Shown here piece by piece: positions 1,215 to 35,300 of a stretch of DNA of 64,000 bases (positions within the stretch are counted from its first letter, which is position 1; every line of letters starts with the position of its first letter). The translations under genes and the position numbers were made by a program. The notes under the pieces were generated by a model, which saw nothing but the letters and a program-made list of their open reading frames with translations, searched no databases and was not told where the DNA came from. The stretch spans positions 43,926,785 to 43,990,784 of the forward strand of contig CM028326.1 in the NCBI GenBank assembly GCA_016647705.1. Reading direction: 5' to 3'. The stretch comes from Eucommia ulmoides. Lineage: Eukaryota > Streptophyta > Magnoliopsida > Garryales > Eucommiaceae.

Positions 1215-1350
1215 AAGTTGTTTACGTAATAAATATTTAAAAAAAATACTGAAAGAATTCATGTTTTAACTTATTTACCGGATAGATGCAATTCGTTGTA
1301 ACGAACACCGGGATCAGATAATTCGCGGTTTTTTATTTTTTTTTTATTTT

Positions 1351-1553
1351 TTTTTTCGGCCTTCTGTAGGCCGGGATAAAAAAAGCTAATTTTTTTTTTT
1401 GATTCATGTGATACCGGCCTTCACAAGGCCGGGATCATAATTTTTTTTTTTATATGTGATCTCGCCCTTGTGAAGGGCGGGATCATAAAAAATAATTTTA
1501 TTTTTTTAATTTTTTTTATGTGATCCCGCCCTTGTAAAGCGCGGGATCACACT
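1351..1553. repeat. Subterminal palindrome cluster, left arm
   Basis: Four near-perfect short palindromes of the form GATCCCG(G/C)CCTT-n-AAGG(C/G)CGGGATC, at about 1357-1377, 1403-1436, 1448-1478 and 1519-1550, are separated by T-rich spacers. Each can fold into a stem of about 12 bp with a very small loop. Mirror copies lie at 8094-8257 in the right arm. Clustered subterminal motifs in DNA transposons often serve as transposase binding sites; that role is inferred here. Confidence 0.75.
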
Positions 1554-1730
1554 TTATACAAACGGAAACCATTGCCATTTGGCTGGTCGTCGTTTGCTTT
1601 GGCCGGTCAAACGTGACCAACCAAAGGCTGCAAAAGAAGGCAGTCTTTTCTTGGCAGCCTTCTTTTGCACTTGAGCCAGGCTTTTTTTTTTAAAATTTTG
1701 AAGACTGTCAGAATAAATTTTGACCATTTT

Positions 1731-1884
1731 TGGCTATAAATCTCACTATCGAGTTCACTCCTAAATCACACTCTTGTGCTCCCTCTCTCATTTTTCTCAT
1801 TTTTGTCATTTTTGTTCTTCATTTTTTATTTTTCTCTTCTGTTCGCACTTCTTCTATTCAGACTTCTACTCCTCCATTCACAAG
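1731..1884 (+). promoter_or_regulatory. TIR-embedded promoter, leader exon and 5' splice site (plus strand)
   Basis: A TATA box, CTATAAATC, at 1734-1742 is followed by a CT-rich leader and a possible splice donor GTTAGTA at 1884. A fitting acceptor, a pyrimidine-rich run ending in GATAG, lies at 3251-3256, nine bases before the ATG at 3266. This suggests a leader exon, an intron of about 1.37 kb made of the tandem repeats, and a coding exon. The right arm has the mirror arrangement. Splicing is inferred from motifs only. Confidence 0.55.
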
Positions 1885-3020
1885 TTAGTATATTTTTAAC
1901 GTTTTTTTAATTTATATGTTAATTTAATTAATATATTTTTTACCTGTTATTTGTTAGTTAGTTGGTTAGTTTAATTTGTTAATTTAATTGTTAAATTAAA
2001 AATTATACTTTGGCCCTTTTCATATGTTTAGGAAAATATAAAATAATACATTATTTAAAAAAAAATGTTAGTTAGTTAGTTTAATTTTTTAATCTAGCTA
2101 TTTAATTAAAAGAATATGCACTTTGACCCCTAAAAGTTAACAATTAGAAAAATATAAATTTTTAATATATTATTTTAAAATAAATGATTAGTTTGTTTGT
2201 TTGTATTGTTAATTTAATTTGTTAGTTTAGTTGTTTAATTAGTTAGTTAGTTGGTTAGTTTAATTTGTTAATTTAGTTGTTAAATTAAAAATTACACTTT
2301 GTCCACTTTCACATGTGTAGGAAAATATAAATCAACATATTATTTAAAAAAAAATGTATGTTAATTAGTTTAATTTTCTAATTTAGCTATTTAATTAAAA
2401 ATATACACTTTGACCCCTGAAATTTTGACAATTAGAAAAATATAAAATTTTCAACCTATTGTTTTAAAATAAATTGTTAGTTAGTTTCATTTTTGAATTT
2501 CGTTATTTAATTTAAAATATATTTGTTTAATTTGTTAATTTAGTTGTTAAATTAGAAATTATACTTTCGCCTCCTTTCATATGTGTAGGAAAATGTAAAT
2601 CAACATATTAATTAAAAAAATGTATGTTAGTTAGTTTAATTTTTTAATTTAGCTATTTAATTAAAAATATACACTTTGGCCCTTGAAATTTTGACAATTA
2701 GAAAAATATAAAATTTTCAACCTATTGTTTTAAAATAAATTGTTAGTTAGTTTCATTTTTGAATTTTGTTATTTAATTTAAAATGTATTTGTTTAATTTA
2801 TTAATTTAGTTGTTAAATTAGAAATTACACTTTCTCCCCTTTCACATGTGTAGGAAAATATAAATCAATATATTATTTAAAAAATGTATGTTAGTTAGTT
2901 TAATTTTCTAATTTAGCTATTTAATTAAAAATATACACTTTGGCCCCTGAAATTTTGACAATTAGAAAAATATAAAATTTTCAACCTATTGTTTTAAAAT
3001 AAATTGTTAGTTACTTTCAT
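1885..3020 (+). repeat. Diverged tandem repeats filling the left intron
   Basis: Four or so units with a spacing of about 262-287 bp. Each has two related halves, one holding TTTCACATGTGTAGGAAAA and the other ACACTTTG(A/G)CCCCTGAAA, joined by TTAGTTAGTTTAATTT stretches. The key phrase recurs near 2117, 2404, 2666 and 2935. The same units appear inverted at about 6640-7400, so the repeats belong to the extended inverted arms. The remainder up to 3256 is AT-rich with no repeat. Confidence 0.75.
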
Positions 3021-3265
3021 TCCTCAAATTAATTGAATCTATTTACTAGATATTAACTTGACGTGGAATTTATATTCGATTTAGAGTTAAAGTTAAAATA
3101 ATTATTGAATAAATTCAAAATAAGTAAAATATTAAAGATTGAAAATAAATTACTCAAACCCATAAAAAATGAACACTATAAACCAACATACTTTTGTGAT
3201 TGAATTTTAGTTGACGATATTATTTTCTTGTTTTGTTTTGCTTTGTCAAATGATAGCCGCTTGAA

Positions 3266-4465
3266 ATGGATCACGTTCGGTTGTTATTGCATTGGGGTGA
3301 TAGAATATTGGAAGGTATGGAGTTCGGGGTTTGTTATAGTACATCAGTTGTAAAATCTTTGGTTGTCCGTAGGGGAACAACCTTAAATGAATTAATTGAG
3401 ACGCTAAAACCATGTGTTCTTGAAGATGGGGTTACTGGAATTTTGAAACTAAAGTGTAGGATGCCGATGGCTCTTTTCGGGTCGAACTATAAATATACCT
3501 TGTTTTCTATTGAGGATGACTCAGCATTAAATCAAGTGCTTGAGTTACCTCTTTATATACCCTCTCTTCTTACTGTTGAAGTCTATGTAGAGATAGAACG
3601 GACATTTGATGATGGTCCAAATTTTTTTCCCCTAAGTGGTCATTTTACCAACTTAATGACCCAGAATTTAAATCCGTACAGTACCCAATCTAACGGGCAA
3701 TTTTTTGGCACCGTTCCCCAAGTAGACCAGTCTAATTACACCATCCCACCCCCTTACAGTCTAGACCAATATCATTCCCACAATACTCTCATGCTGTACC
3801 CCCAATTACTTGAGTCTAATTACACCGTCCCACTCCCCTATATTCCAGAGCAAGATCATTCTCATAGTATGATTAACCGTGCTCATGGCACCAGTTCTGC
3901 TCTTCCACATCACTATTATTCACCGAGTAGTCCGCCGCACGATAACACAAGTAATTATAGTGGTGACTTTGATACAATTGATAGTCGCCATGATGTGTCA
4001 GAAGAAGAGTTAGATGCGGAACCTTCTACATCGTACGACATGGGCTCTTATGCCGGATCATCTAGTACGTACGGCATAGGCGCTCATGCCGAATCATCTA
4101 GTGCGTACGGCATGGGTGACGATGCTGGGCCATCCCACGTGTACCAGATGTATGACCCTTATTCGCATTACACATCGCAGCTAGGTACACACCCGTCATC
4201 GTCATTCGTTACTCCGGAGATGGACGAAATTATTTCAACTTCAGGCGTCATTCTTCCAGTGGAATTTGTCGAACCCACAAGATTGCCAAGACAAATGTCG
4301 CCGGTGCCGTGGTTCGAGGACGACGTCGATGCCATCCCGGGGAGTATGCATCAGGCGTTCACGAACTTTGGACAAGTTATACAAGTTCATTAGGAGGCTG
4401 AGGAACCTTCTATTGCACAACGACGAGGGCGGAGGAACGTCCGCCGTAGGCCTTGCGGTACATAA
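3266..4465 (+). pseudogene. PB1-like N-terminal domain protein of the Mutator-like element, with a premature stop
   Basis: The frame is open from ATG 3266 to a TAG at 4391-4393 (375 codons). It then continues for 23 more codons in the same frame to TAA 4463-4465, ending in an Arg-rich tail with ...RRRPCGT, so the ancestral product was about 399 residues and the TAG probably arose from CAG. Residues 1-112 (VRLLLHWGDRIL start, IEDDSALNQVL, LTVEVYVEIER end) resemble the PB1-like N-terminal segment of some plant Mutator-like transposases. Residues 115-310 are low-complexity, with two SNYT(I/V)P-PY units and three 12-residue units around SSS(T/A)YG(I/M)G, encoded by 36-bp DNA repeats (about 4032-4139). 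No catalytic core or zinc finger follows. A splice acceptor sits just before the start. Function unknown; a role in partner binding is a guess. Confidence 0.7.
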
Positions 4466-4584
4466 TTAGTTATGTAGTTGATAGTTTAGCTATAGGAATG
4501 TAAATATATTTTTTTTGTAAATATATAGTTATATAGTAATTTATGTAGTTAGTAAATACATTTTTTTGTAACGTTTGGAGATTT
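4466..4584. other. Short AT-rich spacer after the PB1-like gene
   Basis: AT-rich spacer with repeated TATAGTTA / TATGTAGTTA phrases, suitable for a 3' untranslated end of the plus-strand gene. No polyadenylation site can be fixed by eye. Confidence 0.35.
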
Positions 4585-4844
4585 AGAAAGTTATTGATCT
4601 ACCGTATATATTGCTTCGCAAATAGATACAGAATTTAAATAGGAGATCGAGCAATGTGTCTAACATTCCAGAAAGATTCTTAAAAAGGAAAATAGAGTAA
4701 AAAGTGGTTGAGTATACTCAACCACTTTTTACTCTGTTTAGCTTTTCAAGAATTTTTCAAGAATGTTTGACACATTGTTCTATCTCTCATTCAAATTCTG
4801 TATCTATTTCTTAAGCAATATACATGGTAGATCAACAGCTTTCT
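4585..4844. repeat. 260-bp gap-free palindrome between the convergent genes
   Basis: The two 130-bp arms are symmetric about the point between 4714 and 4715, with no gap and no loop. The innermost 20 bp of each arm pair perfectly (GAGTAAAAAGTGGTTGAGTA and its complement), and the outer parts pair with scattered mismatches. It lies between the ends of the plus-strand and minus-strand genes, so read-through from either side would give a long hairpin RNA. It could be a foldback MITE, a bidirectional terminator or a small-RNA source. No TSD is obvious. Confidence 0.88.
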
Positions 4845-5158
4845 ATTGTTTATTCTATCTTCGAGAGTTGTATATACATATTTATTCATCGTGATTTTGA
4901 AAGATTATTTTTCAAAGACAGACATGATATAGAAATGAAAGGCGAAACAACTCCTAACAATATAATATTAAAGGCGAAACAACTTAAAATAATCATAAAC
5001 ATTATATTAAAAAAATATTATATAAATTAGAAACACGTTTAACGATGTTTGTTACAAAACTCATAACAAAGACAGTACATAAGAAATACAGTACATAATA
5101 TCACGAAAATAGTGACAATAAAAACACTTAAAAAGAAAATACCACAGCCAAAAATTAA

Positions 5159-5665
5159 TTATTCTTCATTCGACAGGTACCCCTCAGACATATATCCATT
5201 GTTATTTATCACGTTATGGTATTCGTTTGGAGAGAGTGCTCTGTTGCTTGCGATAGCCATTTCATTGGCTAGTTGTAGTAGATAATATCTATTTCTGCGC
5301 AACAACATTCGATTATTCTCTAGGCGAATTCATGTAATAGCATCTTCAATCTCGGTTGTGTCATCAATTATACATCGTCAAGGCATCTGAAGACTTCGAT
5401 GATGCGGAACCGGTGCATTAAGATTTCTCAAATAAGATATAAGGTTGTTAGACTCATTCACCCTGTATTCCCACTCTTGGCGTAGACCGACGCGATACTC
5501 TATCGGGTTGGTCTCTTGATCAATCTAGTAATCATCATAATATGGTTTTAAAACCCAACATCTTTGTTGATCCCACGGTCCATGCTAACCCCAAACACCA
5601 TATGAGTTCTCCTCACTTGAAAAACCATATGAACTTTCTTCACTTGAATTAATATGTGAAGACAT
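5159..5665 (-). pseudogene. Paralogue of the 5951-6385 ORF, with four in-frame stops
   Basis: Reading from ATG 5665 to TAA 5159 gives 169 codons in one frame, with four internal stops (two TAG, two TGA), all explained by C-to-T change of CAG or CGA codons, as expected from cytosine methylation decay. The start is Ser/Glu/Tyr-rich. From the middle on it aligns without large gaps to the next ORF: R-W-L near the start, then E(W/Y)-YRVN(E/Q)S, then R-EN(N)-M-R-R-Y/H-L, then an acidic end. A possible splice acceptor TTAATTTGCAG lies about 50 bp upstream. The product family is unrecognised. Confidence 0.7.
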
Positions 5666-5950
5666 TATGAAAATTATAGGCTGAACAATTTCTTTACAAA
5701 TATTATACTGCAAATTAAGAGTTCACAAAAAAATTAGTTTTTTAAAAACATAATTAATGAAAAATAATGTTTTATAACTTATGTACACAAGCCTTAACAA
5801 AAAAAAAACTAACCCAACATCACCTATCAATTGAAAGAGAAAAAATCAGTTATTTGGTAGAAATAGTGTTATTATAATTTAACGTAGAAATGATACATTA
5901 GATTTCAAATGAAATACATAATTAAACTACAATTCACCAACGCGAAAACA

Positions 5951-6385
5951 TTAAACATTACTTTCATCATCAGACATTTCAATATCTGACTGATATTGAG
6001 GATTCTTTGCGTATCTCATGTAAGTACGCGCTTCGGTGAACAAACCTTGTTCAAGACGCTCACGTGCCGTCGTTTTAAGCTCATGTCGAAAAACTCGAAT
6101 TTGCATTTGGTTATTTTCTTCGCGGTAGCGATGCAACGCCATTTGAAGATTATGCGGCGTGTCTATTCGCATTGTTCTGGCTAATTGACGCACTATTGGA
6201 ATATTATATTGCCTGCATCCGTCCACCATAACCTCTGATTGGTTGACACGATAAGTGTATTCCTCCCGCATCCTTGCAACCGACCATGAAGAGTAACGAA
6301 CTCTTGGATCTAAAGAATATGAAAATTCGTCTTCCAAAAGCCAGTTACGTCTCATTGAACGATACAAATCTCTCACCGTGTACAT
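5951..6385 (-). CDS. Unrecognised basic/helical protein of the Mutator-like element
   Basis: Open from ATG 6385 to TAA 5951, 144 residues. An upstream in-frame TTG at 6391 is an unlikely start in a plant. The product has no Cys, no signal peptide and no membrane segment. It is rich in Arg, Glu, Met and Tyr, predicted mainly helical, with DPRVRYSSWSVARMREEY near residue 27 and an acidic tail (DIEMSDDESNV). It has no stop, unlike its downstream paralogue at 5159-5665. Both are convergent with the PB1-like gene, the position of mudrB relative to mudrA in MuDR, but I see no similarity I could claim to MURB. It is probably expressed from the right TIR promoter through a long intron. Function unknown; a coat or DNA-binding partner is possible. 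Confidence 0.6.
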   Translation of the reverse strand: MYTVRDLYRSMRRNWLLEDEFSYSLDPRVRYSSWSVARMREEYTYRVNQSEVMVDGCRQYNIPIVRQLARTMRIDTPHNLQMALHRYREENNQMQIRVFRHELKTTARERLEQGLFTEARTYMRYAKNPQYQSDIEMSDDESNV

Positions 6386-6429
6386 TTTCAATCCTTTTCA
6401 TTTTATTTGTTTTTAAATTAGTCAACAAT

Positions 6430-7703
6430 TTAATTTTTTCAAACACATTAAAAAATAAACTAATTAAGTAACTAACATTTTTTTTTTTAAAAAAATAATC
6501 TATTATAATTTCTATTTCAGTTTTTATTTTTCCACACATGTAATTTATCAATTTTGAGGCGCCAAAGTACATTTTTAAAAATTAAACAACTAAATTAAAA
6601 TTTTAAACTAATTCACTAAATATTTTTTTTAAAAACAATATATTATACTTTATATTTCAATTTATATTTTTCTCACACATGTATAATTTACTCAAATTGT
6701 TAGGGCCCAAAGTGCATAATTTTCAATTAAACAACTAAAGTAACAAATTAAACTAACAAACTAACTAAGAAATTAAACAACTAAACTAACAAATTAAATT
6801 AACCAATGAATTAACAAATTAAATAAAATAAATAAATTAACTAACAAACAGATTAACTAAATAATTAAACACGTACAAAATATAGTAATCAAATTAAGAA
6901 ATAAATTAAACTTACTAACAATTTATTTTAAATTTATATTTTTATAATTGTCAAAATTTCAGGGGCGAAAGTGTATATTTTTTAATTAAATAGCTAAATT
7001 AAAAAATTAAACTAACATACATTTTAAAAATAATATATTGATTTATATTTTTCTACACATGTGAAAATGGGCCAAAATGTAATTTTTAATTTAACAACTA
7101 AATTAACAAATAAAATAAATATATTTTAAATTAAATAACTAAATTAAAAAATCAAACTAACTAACCATTTATTTTAAAACAATAGGTTGAAAATTTTATA
7201 TTTTTGTAATTGTCAAAATTTCAGGGGCCAAAGTGTATATTTTTAATTAAATAGTTAAATTAGAAAATTAAACTAACTAACATACATTTTTTTTTAAATA
7301 ATATATTGATTTATATTTTCCTACACATGTGAAAGGGGACAAAGTGTAATTTTTAATTTAACAACTAAATTAACAAATTAAACTAACCAACTAACTAACT
7401 AACTAATTAAACAACTAAACCAACAAATTAAATTAACAAAACAAACAAACTAACTAATAAATGTGTTGAATAACAAATTAAAATTAAACTATCCTCTAAT
7501 ATTTTTTAAAAAAAAATAAATAAATTAACTAGTAAATTAATTAACTAACTAATTATTTTTTAAAACAATATATTATAATGTGTAAAAAATAAGTTATCAA
7601 TCAAACTAACAAACAGTAAATTAATCAAATTAACAAATAACAAGTAAAAAATTATACTAATCAAACTAATAAATAAATTAAACAAAAAAAAAAAAAAAAC
7701 ACT
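6430..7703 (-). repeat. Diverged tandem repeats filling the right intron
   Basis: Inverted counterpart of 1885-3020: the same half-units (complement of CACATGTGTAGGAAAA and of CCCCTGAAATTTTGACAA) recur, most clearly at about 6960, 7050, 7215 and 7325. Between and after these are AT-rich runs of AACTAACTAA type and a poly-A tract at 7684-7699. On the minus strand this lies between a splice donor at 7706 and the ORF at 6385. Confidence 0.7.
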
Positions 7704-7705
7704 TA

Positions 7706-7885
7706 CCTTTGTAGTAGGAGGGATGAATTGTGAAATTGTAAATTTGTTAAATTTTGATGAAGAAAATTGTCCACATAAATAATGAACACTCTGATTAAAA
7801 TAAAGAAAAATTTTGAATGAAGAAGAGGAAAACAATTTGATAGATAATGAGCAAGATTGAAATAGAATGGAGTATATTTATACAC
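7706..7885 (-). promoter_or_regulatory. TIR-embedded promoter, leader exon and 5' splice site (minus strand)
   Basis: On the minus strand a TATA box GTATAAATATACT (7871-7883) is followed by a CT-rich leader and then CAAAG|GTAAGT, a consensus plant splice donor with the cut after 7707. This is a better donor than its left-arm counterpart. It would start transcripts toward the minus-strand ORFs. Confidence 0.55.
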
Positions 7886-8397
7886 CCGAGTCCAGCTGGC
7901 TGCCTGCTAAAGTATCGGCCTTTTTCAAATTGGTCAAAAATTATACTGACATTGGCCAAAAAATCGGACTTCAAAAAATTAAAGAGGGCTGCCAAGAAAA
8001 GGCTGCTTTCTTTTGCAGCCTTTGGCCGGTCACGTTTAACTGACCAAAGCAAATGGCGACCATCCAAATGGCGATAGTCGCCGTCTGTATAAAGTGTGAT
8101 CCTGCCCTTCACAAGGGCGGGATCACATAAAAATAAATAAATAAATAAAATAAATAAATAAATAAATAAATTATGATCCTGGCCTTGTGAAGGCCGGGAT
8201 CACATGAATCAAATTATTTTTAGCTTTTTTGATCCTGGCCTTCAAAAGACCGGGATAAAAAAAAAAAGAAAAAAAGAAAGAACGCGAAATATCTGATCCC
8301 GTCGTTCGTAACAACAAAATGCGTCTATTCGGTAAATAAGTTAAAACATGAATTCTTTCAGTAAATTTTTTTAAAATATTTATTACATAAACAACTC
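7706..8397 (-). repeat. Right terminal inverted repeat (outer part)
   Basis: Reverse-complement partner of 1215-1884. It shares the end, the palindromes (about 8094-8127, 8172-8206, 8229-8257), the GCCATTTGG block and the GGCTGCAAAAGAAAGC hairpin region, with small differences such as (AAAT)n spacers at 8129-8171 in place of T-runs. Confidence 0.85.
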
Positions 8398-8407
8398 GTT
8401 GGAGACC
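8398..8407. repeat. Target-site duplication, right copy (10 bp)
   Basis: GTTGGAGACC, identical to 1205-1214, directly after the right end of the Mutator-like element. Confidence 0.85.
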
Positions 8408-9835
8408 ATGTCTTAGGATAACTCGATAGGTTGATCACTTAGAAAGGTTAGTGTTAGGTCTAGATCACAACCTGGTTGTGAATCTAGTTTTACAATCAAC
8501 GTTTGATGCGTACGATTAATACGTGGTGAACTTCAACATGAAAAACCTAGAAGTTGCTCTTTTGGGATTTTCGACATGTTGGAGATCACCGAGAGGACCT
8601 TCAAAAAGTCTAATAGTTCGTTACTCATCGTTGGTGGGCCTTCGACCTCAAAAGGGACTTTTAGAGGAAGAAGAGCAAAACCAAATCTTCTTTGGAAGTG
8701 AAAAGTACGCCAAGGAAAAAGATGAGGCCCAAGAAATGGAAATTCTTTCATTGCGATCAACAAGGCAAATAGAAAAGAAAATGTCCCTAGTTTCTAAGTT
8801 CTAAGATAAACCTTCGGCAGGTATAAGGGATTTTGTTGTTGTTAGTGCCTATTCGATAACCTGTTCTATTTCACATTGGATTTTAGACTCTAGCGCTTGT
8901 TCATATTTATGTAATACTACACAGGGTCTAAAGAGAAGTAAAAGGCCAAATAAAGAGGACATCTATCTACGTATAGGAAATAGAGCAAGAGTTGCTTCAT
9001 TAGTCCTAGGTGAACTTTATTTGGACCTGTTGTCGTTGCATGTTTTAAAATTGAGCCATTTTTATTTATGCCTACTATATTTAGAAAATTTATTTCAATT
9101 TCCTTTTTAATAAAGGATGGTTTTACAATTATTTTTTAGAATAATACTTGTATTATTCATTTCAATTCAGAATTGATTGGTGCGGGCATGTGTTTTTATC
9201 TATTATTAAAGTATAACAAATAAAATATTAAGAGATGAAAATCCAACCAACCTATGGAATCTCAAACTAGGTTATATTAGTGAGAAGATGATTAACAAAA
9301 TGGTCAAATATGGACTTTGGGCCCACTTGGGTTGGAGCTATTGCCAACTTGTGAACCTTGTCTAATGAGTAAGTTGTCTAAGTCACCAATTGTTGGAAAT
9401 TGGAAAAGGTCTGCTAGCATAATGGTCCTGGTACATAGTGACGTACGTAGACCCCATACGCTTGAAAGATCGATGAATATTTTCATACTTTATGACCTTT
9501 ACCGAAGTTCATTATAGGTATAGTTTAGTGCATTTTATAAACCAAAAGTTTGACTCATTTGAAATGTTCAATGAATTAAGAAATAAAGTGAAGAAACGTA
9601 TACGAAAAATTATTAAGAATTTTGTATCAAATCGAGACAAGAATTACTAATCAATGGAGTTTTTAGACCATCTCAAACCAAATGATATACTTTAATAGTG
9701 GACTCCTAATGCTACCCGACAATTAGATAATGTATTGAAAAAGAAAAAATGGTTTATGTTAGTTATGGTCAGATCAATGTTGAATCGTATTGACTTTACC
9801 TATTTCATTTTTGGGATGGTCTTTAATAGATTATG
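8408..9835 (+). pseudogene. Copia gag-protease-integrase remnant
   Basis: Frameshifted pieces occur in the canonical Copia order. First is a gag part with VNFNMKNLEVAL (about 8527-8562). Next is a decayed CCHC zinc knuckle, FHCDQQGK-stop-KRKC (about 8744-8784). A protease start follows, where the active-site DSG reads DSS (8886-8894), then a QGLKRSKRP-like segment. The pre-integrase and integrase come last: PTCEPCLMSKLSKSP (about 9345-9390), LVHSDV with the first catalytic Asp, then a broken second-Asp region and a degraded QLN-VSERRNRTL-like stretch (about 9720-9770). Stops and shifts make it non-functional. Reverse transcriptase and RNase H are not present in the window. The element continues from the left side of the Mutator-like insertion. 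Confidence 0.82.
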
Positions 9836-10049: not shown

Positions 10050-11340
10050 CGTAGACACCACATTTTGTCCAGCCCATTTTTGCTTTTAATAAAATTATCA
10101 AGTATAAGTGAAAATTTAGACAAACTTTAAACCACGTTTCAAGGGACGAATTCATTTCTTAGATTCTCATGTTTAATTTTTATATAATGTTTCGAAAAAG
10201 AAAATACCGAAAATTTGGGATTTGGAAGGAATTCCGGCAAGAAAAAAAGTTTTAGGCTAAAATTGAATTTTTTTAAAAGTTAGTTGGGGACCAAATTGAT
10301 TAAATTGAAATTGGATTTTCATAAAATATGATTTTTGGTATAGTTAATTTCAGATTCAACCCTTTAATTTTAAGAAATTTTACCAATTGCAGTTACTTTT
10401 TATTTTGACCCAAAACCTATATTTTTTTGTCAATTTCATCAAATTGATGACCAATTGAATGTTAATTTACGAAATTGAATAGTTATGCTGAGCATTTTAA
10501 TTTCATGAAAACCCTAAAAAAAAATTATATTTTATTGTTAAAAATTGCTCATATCACTAAATTTACCTCATATACACCACCTAGGAATAAGACAGAGTAA
10601 GATGTTATGAGAAAAGGAACTAAATCTAGAGAACTAAGAACCCAAATCTAAATTAATTAAATCACAAAGCATACCCGAGTGGGGTTTTAGAACAGAAATC
10701 GGTAAAGACCGAAATTGGAAGTAAATCTTACCTATTGGTCGCGAACATTGGAGAAGTGAAATCAATGAGGGCCCTGAGATCGAATTCAGCAGATTTATCA
10801 ATGGATTTATCCTCTGGCTTGGATTATAAAGCATACCCTAGTCGGCTTCAGAATGTGTTTCAGAATACATTCTCTAGCTTCTAGGAATAGAGAGATAGTA
10901 AGCAATGTAATGTTGGTGTGGCGAAAGAGAAAATGAAAGCTCGCGAGCATCAAGAAAAATGTTGGCCTGGATCTATGACGGTGTGTGGGTATCAATGGCA
11001 AGGCAATGGCAATGGCGGCAATGGCTTCGAGATAGTGGGTGGAGATGGCGACGGACGTCAATGGTAGTGTGATGCACGACGATGGAACGGCTGAGCGACG
11101 TGAGCTATGGCGATAGCAGGATGAGAGGGAGTGCATGTGTGAATGAACCCTTAATCATTACTCATTAGCGATGGGAAGAGAGAAGGAGGCATAAGATTAG
11201 GGAATGTTCGGGAATGAGAGAGAGGGTGAGAGACTTAGGAAGCAAAATGTTTGGGAAGGAAAATGATTAATTAAGGAAGGGTTAATTAACTAAATTAATT
11301 TTTTAATTAGAGAAAATTAGGGGAATTTTATCAAAAATAA
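10050..11340 (+). mobile_element. Diverged Tat-like LTR or solo LTR (right end not defined)
   Basis: The start (c)GTAGACACCACATTTTGTCC equals the 5' end of the Tat-like LTRs at 21480, 16514 and 60835. The following 150 bp keep AGTATAAGT and AGACAAACTTTAAAC-like phrases, then similarity is lost, so this is another family or an old copy. Further in, AAAGCATACCC recurs at about 10669 and 10829 in a near-duplicate context of about 158 bp. A purine-rich, more GC part (10900-11260) contains ATGGCGGCAATGGC-like runs but no convincing ORF. No CA end or TSD was found. Confidence 0.45.
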
Positions 11341-12443
11341 AATTGATTTGATCAATCTGTGCCTGAAAATATTTCTATAAAATGTCTCAGGAAAAATGTA
11401 ATCAGTCTTATTTTATATAATAGATATTTTTTTTAATTTAATTTTCAATATTTTAGTATTATTATTAAATTTAATATAAATATATTATTTCTATAAATTT
11501 GTTTTGAATTTAATGTGTGTGTATATATATATATATATATTTTATTTTCTCTTTTATATTATTTTTTAATTTTAATTTTTACAAATTTAATATTTTAGTA
11601 TTATTACTAAATTCAATTTTCATATATTATTTCTATAATTTTCATAAATTTAATATTTCTATAATTACTAAATTTAAAATCAATATATTTTTTTCTATAA
11701 TTTCCATAAATTTACTATACATAATTTAATATCCCATATATTTTTTCTAAAATTTTCGTAAATTTAATATTCATAATTTTTATATATTATATTTTTCTTT
11801 TATATTTTTTATTTAATTTAATTTTCATAAATTTAATATTTTAATATTATTACTAAATTTTACTGTCTATATATTATTTTTATATATAGAAAAAATATAT
11901 TCTCTCTTCTCAATTATACAAAAAGATATATTACTTCTCCTCAATTAGGTATAAGATATATAAAATTAGACAAAAATATACTTTTTTTATATAAGAATTA
12001 ATCTGAACTGCTCTTTATGTGGGAAATAAATAATGGCTAAGATTTTTTTGGAGGGTTTATATCCATCCTATTTTATTATACAAATATTTATATTAATTTT
12101 GTAGATCAATCTGGATAATTCTTCGATTAAGATTTATCGAAGAATTTATGTCCGTCCCCTTTTATTATAAATATTTTAAACATGTTTTTAAGTTCAAATT
12201 AGTAGTGCAACACTTGGATGGCCCCGTATTTGGTGGAGTTGCTTGTCATGTCTCTCGCCCAGAGTGCTTGATCCTTGTGCTGTGCGAGTTCTGACCACGA
12301 GTGGACTAAGGCACCCTCGCTCCCAGCGTGCGCTAGGATGATGAATCTTGGTGTAGAAAAGTTTTAAAGTCCAAGAACACTCAAGTTTGTCGTCGATCTG
12401 TAAGAAACTTGGCCCAATTTATGTGTTGCTCATTGAAAACATA
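11341..12443. repeat. AT-rich region with degenerate CATAAATTTAATATT repeats
   Basis: From about 11450 to 11890 the phrase (A/T)CATAAATTTAATATT(T/A) recurs at least five times at irregular spacing of about 75-110 bp, with a (TA)n tract at 11520-11540. It looks like a degenerate AT-rich tandem repeat. From 11900 to 12443 the sequence is AT-rich with a more GC-rich island (12200-12330) that I cannot assign. Confidence 0.5.
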
Positions 12444-33544: not shown

Positions 33545-35300
33545 TTTTCATATCTATGAACAGAGGTGGGGATTCTTCGTATTTGTTGTCAAAGAGTCAT
33601 TTCTTCTGACACCAGAGACAGGAACATTTTGCTTCCATCAACAGAGATGGGACAATTTTGCTTCTGCCACTGGAGACAGGAATTTCTTCTATCATGGAAG
33701 AAAGAGATTACTTCTATAAATGAAGATAGGGATTACTTCTATCAACGAAGATAGTGATTGCTTCTATCATGCAAGATAGGGATTGTTCCTATCACCAAAG
33801 ATAGAGATTTCTTTGCCTTTATCATGGAGATAGGAATTGCTTTGCTTCTATCATGAAGATAGGGATTTCTTCTACCATTGAAGAAGGTAGGGATTGCTTT
33901 AATCACTAAAGATAGGGATTGCTTTCATCACGGAAGATAGGAATTGCTTCTATCAAGGGAGATATGGATTGCTTCTATCACAGAAGATAGGGATCACTTC
34001 TATTATAGGAGATAGGGATTATTTCTATCACAAAAGATAGGGATTGCTTCTATCACTAAAGATAGGGATTTCTTCTACCACGGGAGATAGAGATTGCTTC
34101 TGTCACTGAAGATAGGGATTGACTCTATCACTAAAGACAAAGTTTGATTCTATCACTAAAGACAATAATTACTTCTATGACTGAGGATAGGGATTGTTTA
34201 TATCATTGAAGATATGGATTTCTTCTATCACGGAAGATCAGGATTGCTTCTATCACTGAAGATAGGGATTGCTTTGCTTCTATCACGAAGATAGGGATTG
34301 CTTCCATCATAGAAGATATGGATTACTTCTATCAAGGGAGATATGGATCGCTTCTATCACAGAAGATAGGGATTGCTTCTATTATGGGAGATATGGATTG
34401 CTTCTATCACTGAAGATAAGGATTGCTTCTACCACGGGAGATAGGGATTACTTCTGTCATTGAAGATAGGGATTGACTCTATCACTAAAGACAAAGATTG
34501 ATTTTATCACTAAAGACAGTAATTGCTTCTATGACTCAGGATAAGGATTGTTTCTATCAATGAAGATATGGATTTCTTCTATCACAGAAGATCAGGATTG
34601 CTTCTATTACTGAAGATAGGGATTGATTTGTTTCTATTACAAAGATAGGGATTGCTTCTATCACTGAAGGTAAGGATTGTTTATGTCACTAAAGATAGGA
34701 ATTGCTTCTATCAAGGGAGATAGGGATTGCTTCTATCATGAGAGATATGGATTACTTCTATCATGGAAGATAAGGATTACTTCTATCATAGAAGATAGGA
34801 ATTTCTTCTATTATGGGAGATATGGGTTGCTTCTATCACAGGAGATAGGGATTGTTTCTACCACTAAAGATAAGGATTGTTTCTATCACTAAAGATAAGG
34901 TTTTCTTCTATCACTGAAGATAGGGATTACTTCTATTAGTGAAGATAGGGATTACTTCTATCATAAGAGATAGGGATTGCTTCTATCACTAGAGATAGGG
35001 ATTACATTTATCACTGGAGATAGGAATTGCTTCTATCAATGAAGATATGGATTACTTTTATCAATGAAGATAGGGACTTCTATCAAGGGAGATAGGGATT
35101 ACTTCTATCACTAAAGATATGGATTGCTTCTATTACTGATGATAGTGATTGCTTCTATCACTGAAGATATGAATTGCTATCACTGAAGATAAGGATTGCT
35201 TCTATCTCGGGAGATAGATATTTCTTCTATCACTGAATATAGGGATTACTTTTATCACTGAATATTGGGATTGCTTTTATCATTGAAGATAGGGATTGGT
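33545..35300. repeat. 25-bp minisatellite array in the 3' untranslated part of element A
   Basis: Roughly 70 units of about 25 bp. Each follows CTATC, six variable bases (CACTGAA-like), GATAG, and about nine bases (GGATTGCTT-like), so every unit carries a CTATC/GATAG dyad. Longer blocks repeat at about 354 bp: GACTCTATCACTAAAGACAA at 34121 and again at 34475, with matching neighbours for at least 300 bp on either side, and a partial third copy after 34630. The position next to the PPT is where Tat-lineage elements are known to hold variable tandem repeats that can seed satellites. Open frames here only reflect the periodicity (three units give 25 codons). Confidence 0.88.

Follow-up and report, generated by a model that had tools for sequence, protein, structure and literature searches.

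How does a Mutator-like element (MULE) with matching ends and two convergent gene sets come to lack a transposase? The question is raised by a 64,000-nucleotide stretch of the Eucommia ulmoides genome (contig CM028326.1, positions 43,926,785 to 43,990,784; hereafter the window), in which positions 1215-8397 form a single MULE insertion of 7.2 kb. The original prediction compared its layout with that of MuDR of maize, assigned it different genes, and proposed either a non-autonomous lineage that kept accessory genes or an element group whose transposase lies elsewhere. Comparison with related copies in the same genome indicates that the element lost its transposase by deletion and not by replacement. 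The window element is very probably an internally deleted, decayed and non-autonomous copy of a MULE family of autonomous type.

Paired ends, full-length relatives and the deletion

The element has both an exact 10-bp target site duplication (TSD), within the 8-11 bp of MULEs, and alignable terminal inverted repeats (TIRs). The TSD, GTTGGAGACC, is identical at 10/10 positions on the left (1205-1214) and the right (8398-8407). The outer part of the A-side TIR (1215-1665, plus strand) begins with AAGTTGTTTA, where other copies mostly have GAGTTGTTTA; that of the B-side TIR (7981-8397, minus strand) aligns with it in inverted orientation. Identity between 1216-1665 and 8396-7981 is 79%; per 100 columns it is 80-90% across the first 400 aligned columns and lower in the leader, and repeats in the introns deeper inside the two ends reach 96/97. 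An origin of the two ends in different insertions, an outcome that the original prediction had named as fatal to it, is ruled out by the exact TSD. The odd B-side leader of the window copy is no sign of a separate insertion either, because this leader type is common to other places in the genome.

Searching the genome (947 Mb, 391 contigs) for the first 301 TIR bases yielded at least 76 matches (40 of 684 candidates scored). Twelve further places, chosen as the best TIR matches and not as a random sample, were read; ten are two-ended and two one-sided, which makes eleven paired copies with that of the window. Their TSDs agree at 10/10 positions in six, at 9 in two, at 8 in two and at 7 in one. 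Six of the eleven are full copies (11,091-13,592 bp), which carry transposase, PMD and B genes between the same ends: the N-terminal part of gene A, the MuDR DNA-binding, MULE and SWIM domains, PMD and its tail lie on one strand, and two small genes, B2 and B1, on the opposite one. Pfam identified PF03108 (E 4e-8), PF10551 (1.1e-10), SWIM (3.2e-8) and PMD (1.9e-57) in copy C12a, and PF10551 (3.6e-17) and PMD (2.5e-60) in copy Y; the one-sided copy C16a also contains transposase and PMD. The MULE transposase domain is missing from the window copy, whereas full-length copies that share its ends have it; thus, the family is a MULE family and the window copy a derivative. A transposase in other copies is what the original prediction had suggested looking for; its reading of different genes, however, does not hold. 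A stop codon separates transposase from PMD in 7/7 copies. Because this stop is kept, PMD is taken to be a separate product, perhaps made by alternative splicing, in contrast to the PMD-transposase fusions described in passages of PMC5418596.

The deletion can be placed to within a few bases. Window positions 3201-4020 follow each of the six full copies collinearly (92-95% identity), and from 4013 onward the window matches a stretch ~4.2 kb further along in five of them and 5.6 kb further in C3a. The junction, GATGCGGA, lies at 4013-4020 on the plus strand. Its parent sites read GATGCGGA and mostly GATGCCGA, the second being GATG, then CC, CT, TC or TT, then GA in the six full copies; because the parent sites differ, the homology is 7/8 at best. 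Upstream of the junction, 3266-4012 (plus strand) encodes the N-terminus of the MULE transposase, comprising the 'PB1-like' region and a linker, which is contiguous with the DNA-binding, MULE and SWIM parts in full-length copies. Downstream, 4021-4465 (plus strand) encodes the C-terminal tail of PMD; an in-frame stop at 4391-4393 ends the protein early, and the frame then reopens for 23 residues to a TAA at 4463-4465. The family carries PF10536 inside the element; the window copy keeps only the tail behind this domain.

The join preserves the reading frame. The predicted 375-aa protein (3266-4393, plus strand) thus consists of the transposase N-terminus fused in frame to the PMD tail, as a result of the ~4.2-kb deletion. 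Its length exceeds chance: 1000 first-order Markov copies of the stretch 3100-6400 contained no stop-free run longer than 185 aa, with a 99th percentile of 159. The frame that had been called a PB1-like protein is therefore real, but the name found no support in Pfam or among PDB sequences. For the proteins encoded in the window itself Pfam was uninformative, and PDB sequence searches gave only chance matches (E 1.3 and 0.91). MUSTANG-B genes, which combine PB1 and MULE domains according to part of PMC3435246, likewise have a domain ahead of the transposase DNA-binding domain; unlike them, the window's family has no Pfam PB1.

In a complete family member, both TIRs would supply a promoter and a leader, and each leader would be spliced across an intron filled with repeats. 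From the A side would come the transposase and then a PMD protein behind its own conserved splice acceptor, and from the convergent B side the small paralogues B1 and B2; transcripts and splicing from the two TIR promoters are inferred. In the window copy, a single deletion between two short imperfect repeats removed ~4.2 kb, including the transposase's DNA-binding, MULE and SWIM regions and almost the whole PMD gene, leaving the fusion. As both ends were kept, this copy could move only with transposase supplied from elsewhere. The deletion may have arisen during repair after excision or replication, as in Mu deletion derivatives.

The second gene pair

In the window, B1 (5951-6385, minus strand) is open for 144 aa, and B2 (5159-5665, minus strand) has four in-frame stops and is intact in copies Y, Z and others. 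All four stops are C-to-T or G-to-A changes relative to copy Y, the pattern expected of methylated DNA. The length of B1 is not beyond chance, and its case rests on conservation. The two had been described as a pair of unrecognised small open reading frames; they indeed have no credible relative in Pfam or PDB (the best, E 0.02 for B1, lies below cut-offs), but they are tandem paralogues, one of them broken here. They are ~30% identical, with a local score of 111 that 0/1000 shuffles reached (best shuffle 59). B1 occurs in at least 150 genome places (150 scored of 1636 candidates); among 30 loci read, 26 are stop-free and eight encode an identical protein.

Between subfamilies Y and Z, no other protein of the element is as well conserved as B1 (90% identity) and B2 (89%). 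Their dN/dS is 0.27 and 0.18 (Fisher test, 1.8e-4 for B1 and 2.7e-8 for B2), compared with 0.17 for the DNA-binding-MULE part, 0.16 for SWIM and 0.28 for PMD, and off-frame controls of B1 and B2 gave 0.72-0.88. By these estimates, both genes are under purifying selection between the two subfamilies. Their dS (0.21 for B1, 0.27 for B2) is much lower than in the rest of the element (0.43-0.81), so some of the identity reflects a younger common ancestor; this would be explained most simply if the subfamilies had exchanged their B sides.

Gene order also varies. In a younger subfamily, the transposase lies on the B side and PMD is left antisense. A 14.2-kb sister element of this kind (C5:544300-566000; L062, L058, L059) has a B-side transposase with a 757-aa open frame, and the B1 protein is identical in eight read loci of its kind. 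Transposase places were scored for 150 of 1122 and 150 of 1166 candidates, and the counts are lower bounds. Among the matches listed, the transposase directly precedes B1 on its strand in 66 cases and is convergent to it in 10. When 50 B1 places picked by hand from the 150 (nearly all Z-like ones and 12 others) were compared with the first 58 transposase places of Z-like type, 23 were convergent and 0 same-strand. At C6:19926873, C8:8185378, C12:490900 and other places, equally scoring transposase matches have no listed B1 nearby; this group may represent a subfamily whose B side is diverged or absent. In copy Z (L061, L060), a GA repeat between the PMD tail and B2 contains 1.2 kb with inverted ends (10340-11555 of the joined stretch), which looks like a nested insertion.

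As had been predicted, two convergent gene sets in a MuDR-like layout are present in the window and in the full copies. With MuDR, the family shares a 9-10 bp TSD, long TIRs, a promoter in each TIR and, in full copies, a SWIM-type transposase. Unlike MuDR, it adds a PMD gene on the A side, has two tandem paralogues without a relative in Pfam or PDB on the B side, and contains large repeat-filled introns, and the window copy has no transposase. The likeness to mudrA and mudrB lies in the convergent layout. By position, B1 and B2 could be counterparts of mudrB, which is described as required for integration in passages of PMC8224964 and PMC6446971; its role is also described, in PMC6446971, as unknown or 'apparently required for integration'. 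A requirement of B1/B2 for insertion would fit their position and direction, which are those of mudrB, their own candidate TIR promoter, their retention in 10/11 paired copies, and a constraint equal to that of the transposase. We regard this role as a serious possibility that falls somewhat short of an even chance. Whether a mudrB-type partner is needed could be tested with an independent two-gene MULE from a plant other than maize, and the present family offers intact-looking members, a second gene pair under selection and two natural gene orders, all in one genome.

A second possibility is that B1/B2, or PMD, act like VANC, countering silencing by binding to repeats within the introns of the element itself. 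The family shares with VANDAL/Hiun elements (vanA, vanB, vanC) a MULE transposase accompanied by additional genes and by noncoding tandem repeats that change fast; unlike them, it has long TIRs. The tandem-repeat unit of the introns differs by subfamily (~190 bp in Y, 260-289 in the window's group, 316 in Z), which recalls the fast-turning repeats bound by VANC in the account that part of PMC5735166 gives, and an anti-silencing role of MULE PMDs is speculated upon in a portion of PMC5418596. However, the Z array is confined to the A side, with no array found by TRF on Z's B side, and the Z unit looks unrelated to those of the other subfamilies while B stays 89-90% identical, a poor fit with array binding that counts somewhat against a VANC-like role. 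Pfam scans showed no VANC similarity other than a match of the PMD stretch to DUF1985 below the cut-off, no VANC sequence or profile having been compared. Such a role is only slightly less likely than the mudrB-like one.

The family is a PMD-carrying MULE, a type that is itself known from families 42-50 of Dupeyron et al. 2019 (in part of PMC6446971) and from the PMD-C MULEs in sections of PMC5418596. For these MULEs, PMD is reported in sense as well as antisense orientation, and an 'unknown ORF and PMD' is listed for one family. Like these elements, the present family combines a MULE transposase with PMD; it differs in having both PMD orientations inside one family of one genome, and in the extra B1/B2 pair, the slowest-changing protein part. 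The family is a new form of PMD-carrying MULE, and no published B-like gene pair was found in open-licence PMC literature. Speculatively, and with about the same reserve as for the VANC-like role, B1 and B2 might be an undescribed essential second component of the PMD-MULE system, as constrained as the transposase and exchanged between subfamilies more recently than it. The transposase would then have switched from the PMD unit to the B unit just before the latest burst, and the movement of a module between TIR promoters would have rewired the regulation of excision and insertion.

Origin of the transposase-less copy

Some points count against the reading as a deleted copy of an autonomous-type family. 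The six full copies of the window's group are broken by stops and frame shifts, and no intact parent of exactly this group is among the copies read. The comparison of Y with Z rests on one copy of each. Within the window's group, selection is not visible: dN/dS is 0.78 for B1 (off-frame, 0.40 and 0.76) and 0.84 for B2 (off-frame, 0.55 and 0.56), so that the off-frame controls are not beaten. This is expected if the copies have been dead since insertion, though it is no proof of it.

A stable non-autonomous lineage living on accessory genes, with transposase from another element group, would also account for a window copy that has no transposase and an open B1, and for the deleted copies C15a, C4b and C10b, all of which retain B1 and B2. 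However, these three and the window copy are each deleted differently, B2 is dead in the window copy, and the exact 20-base junction has one match in the genome, the window copy itself. With two mismatches allowed, one site was found elsewhere, compared with 9 for a backwards control, a search that sisters with more than two changes in the 20-base pattern would escape. Such a lineage is therefore very improbable, and the internally deleted copy remains the preferred explanation. A Pack-MULE, with TIRs enclosing captured fragments of host genes, would suit a transposase-less MULE that holds coding pieces, and MULEs are thought, in part of PMC5418596, to have captured PMD from host genes, but the pieces are collinear with full-length family members at 89-95% DNA identity and the internal sequence is the family's own, which makes this the least credible account. 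A further paired copy, C15b (2.5 kb), has no coding match.

Promoters, repeats and surroundings

The predicted promoter and leader in each TIR were found as candidates, both ends having a TATA box followed by a leader and a splice donor. On the A side, the candidate promoter TATAAAT lies at 1735-1741 (plus strand); its position is kept in 12/12 A-side ends and in 8/10 aligned B-side ends (copy C15b left out), and the leader and GT donor downstream are kept across ends. The window's B-side leader is of a different type, found in at least 39 other genome places (40 of 237 candidates scored), with its own candidate TATA box, TATAAATA (7875-7882, minus strand), and candidate donor, GTAAGT (7701-7706, minus strand). 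The candidate A-side intron spans 1884-3256 (plus strand), from GTTAGT after the leader to an AG at 3255-3256 that is conserved in 9/9 aligned copies. Acceptors also precede PMD and B2, and that of B1 appears weaker by eye. Tandem repeats of ~266-289 bp occupy 1949-3021 in the A-side intron (plus strand), and repeats of ~145 and 262 bp occupy 6483-7444 in the B-side intron (minus strand).

Between the convergent genes lies a 262-bp palindrome with arms of 131+131 bp and no spacer (4584-4845). It was considered as an insertion private to the window copy and rejected, since it has at least 40 scored genome places (511 candidates); 15 of these 40, counting the window copy, are within 6 kb of a window-type leader, and most B1 loci read contain a single arm. 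The palindrome could be a source of hairpin RNA or a two-way terminator.

The TIRs also contain 29-bp palindromic units of the type TGATCCCGCCCTTnnnAAGGGCGGGATCA, four on the A side (1351-1379, 1409-1437, 1457-1485, 1521-1549) and three on the B side (8097-8125, 8174-8202, 8230-8258). Two to four such units per end, spaced by ~56 bp, occur in 24/24 TIR ends examined, and they are candidate protein-binding sites. Their pairing exceeds expectation at one position pair only (8/20; 43/70 compared with 28.9 expected), and selecting units by a palindromic pattern with 7 changes allowed favours pairing, so they suggest selected dimer sites only weakly. A scan for perfect GC-rich arms of at least 8 bases gave just two within the element's ends.

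The element was inserted into the remnant of a copia-like retrotransposon, with gag and pol remnants at 900-1200 and 8520-9110. The left flank matches Retrotran_gag_2 (E 4.9e-6) slightly below the Pfam cut-off, and the right flank weakly resembles a pol domain (E 0.21). Rfam gave no match at gathering score within the window. Farther along, a degenerate tandem array with a period of 25 and ~65 copies occupies 33658-35298.

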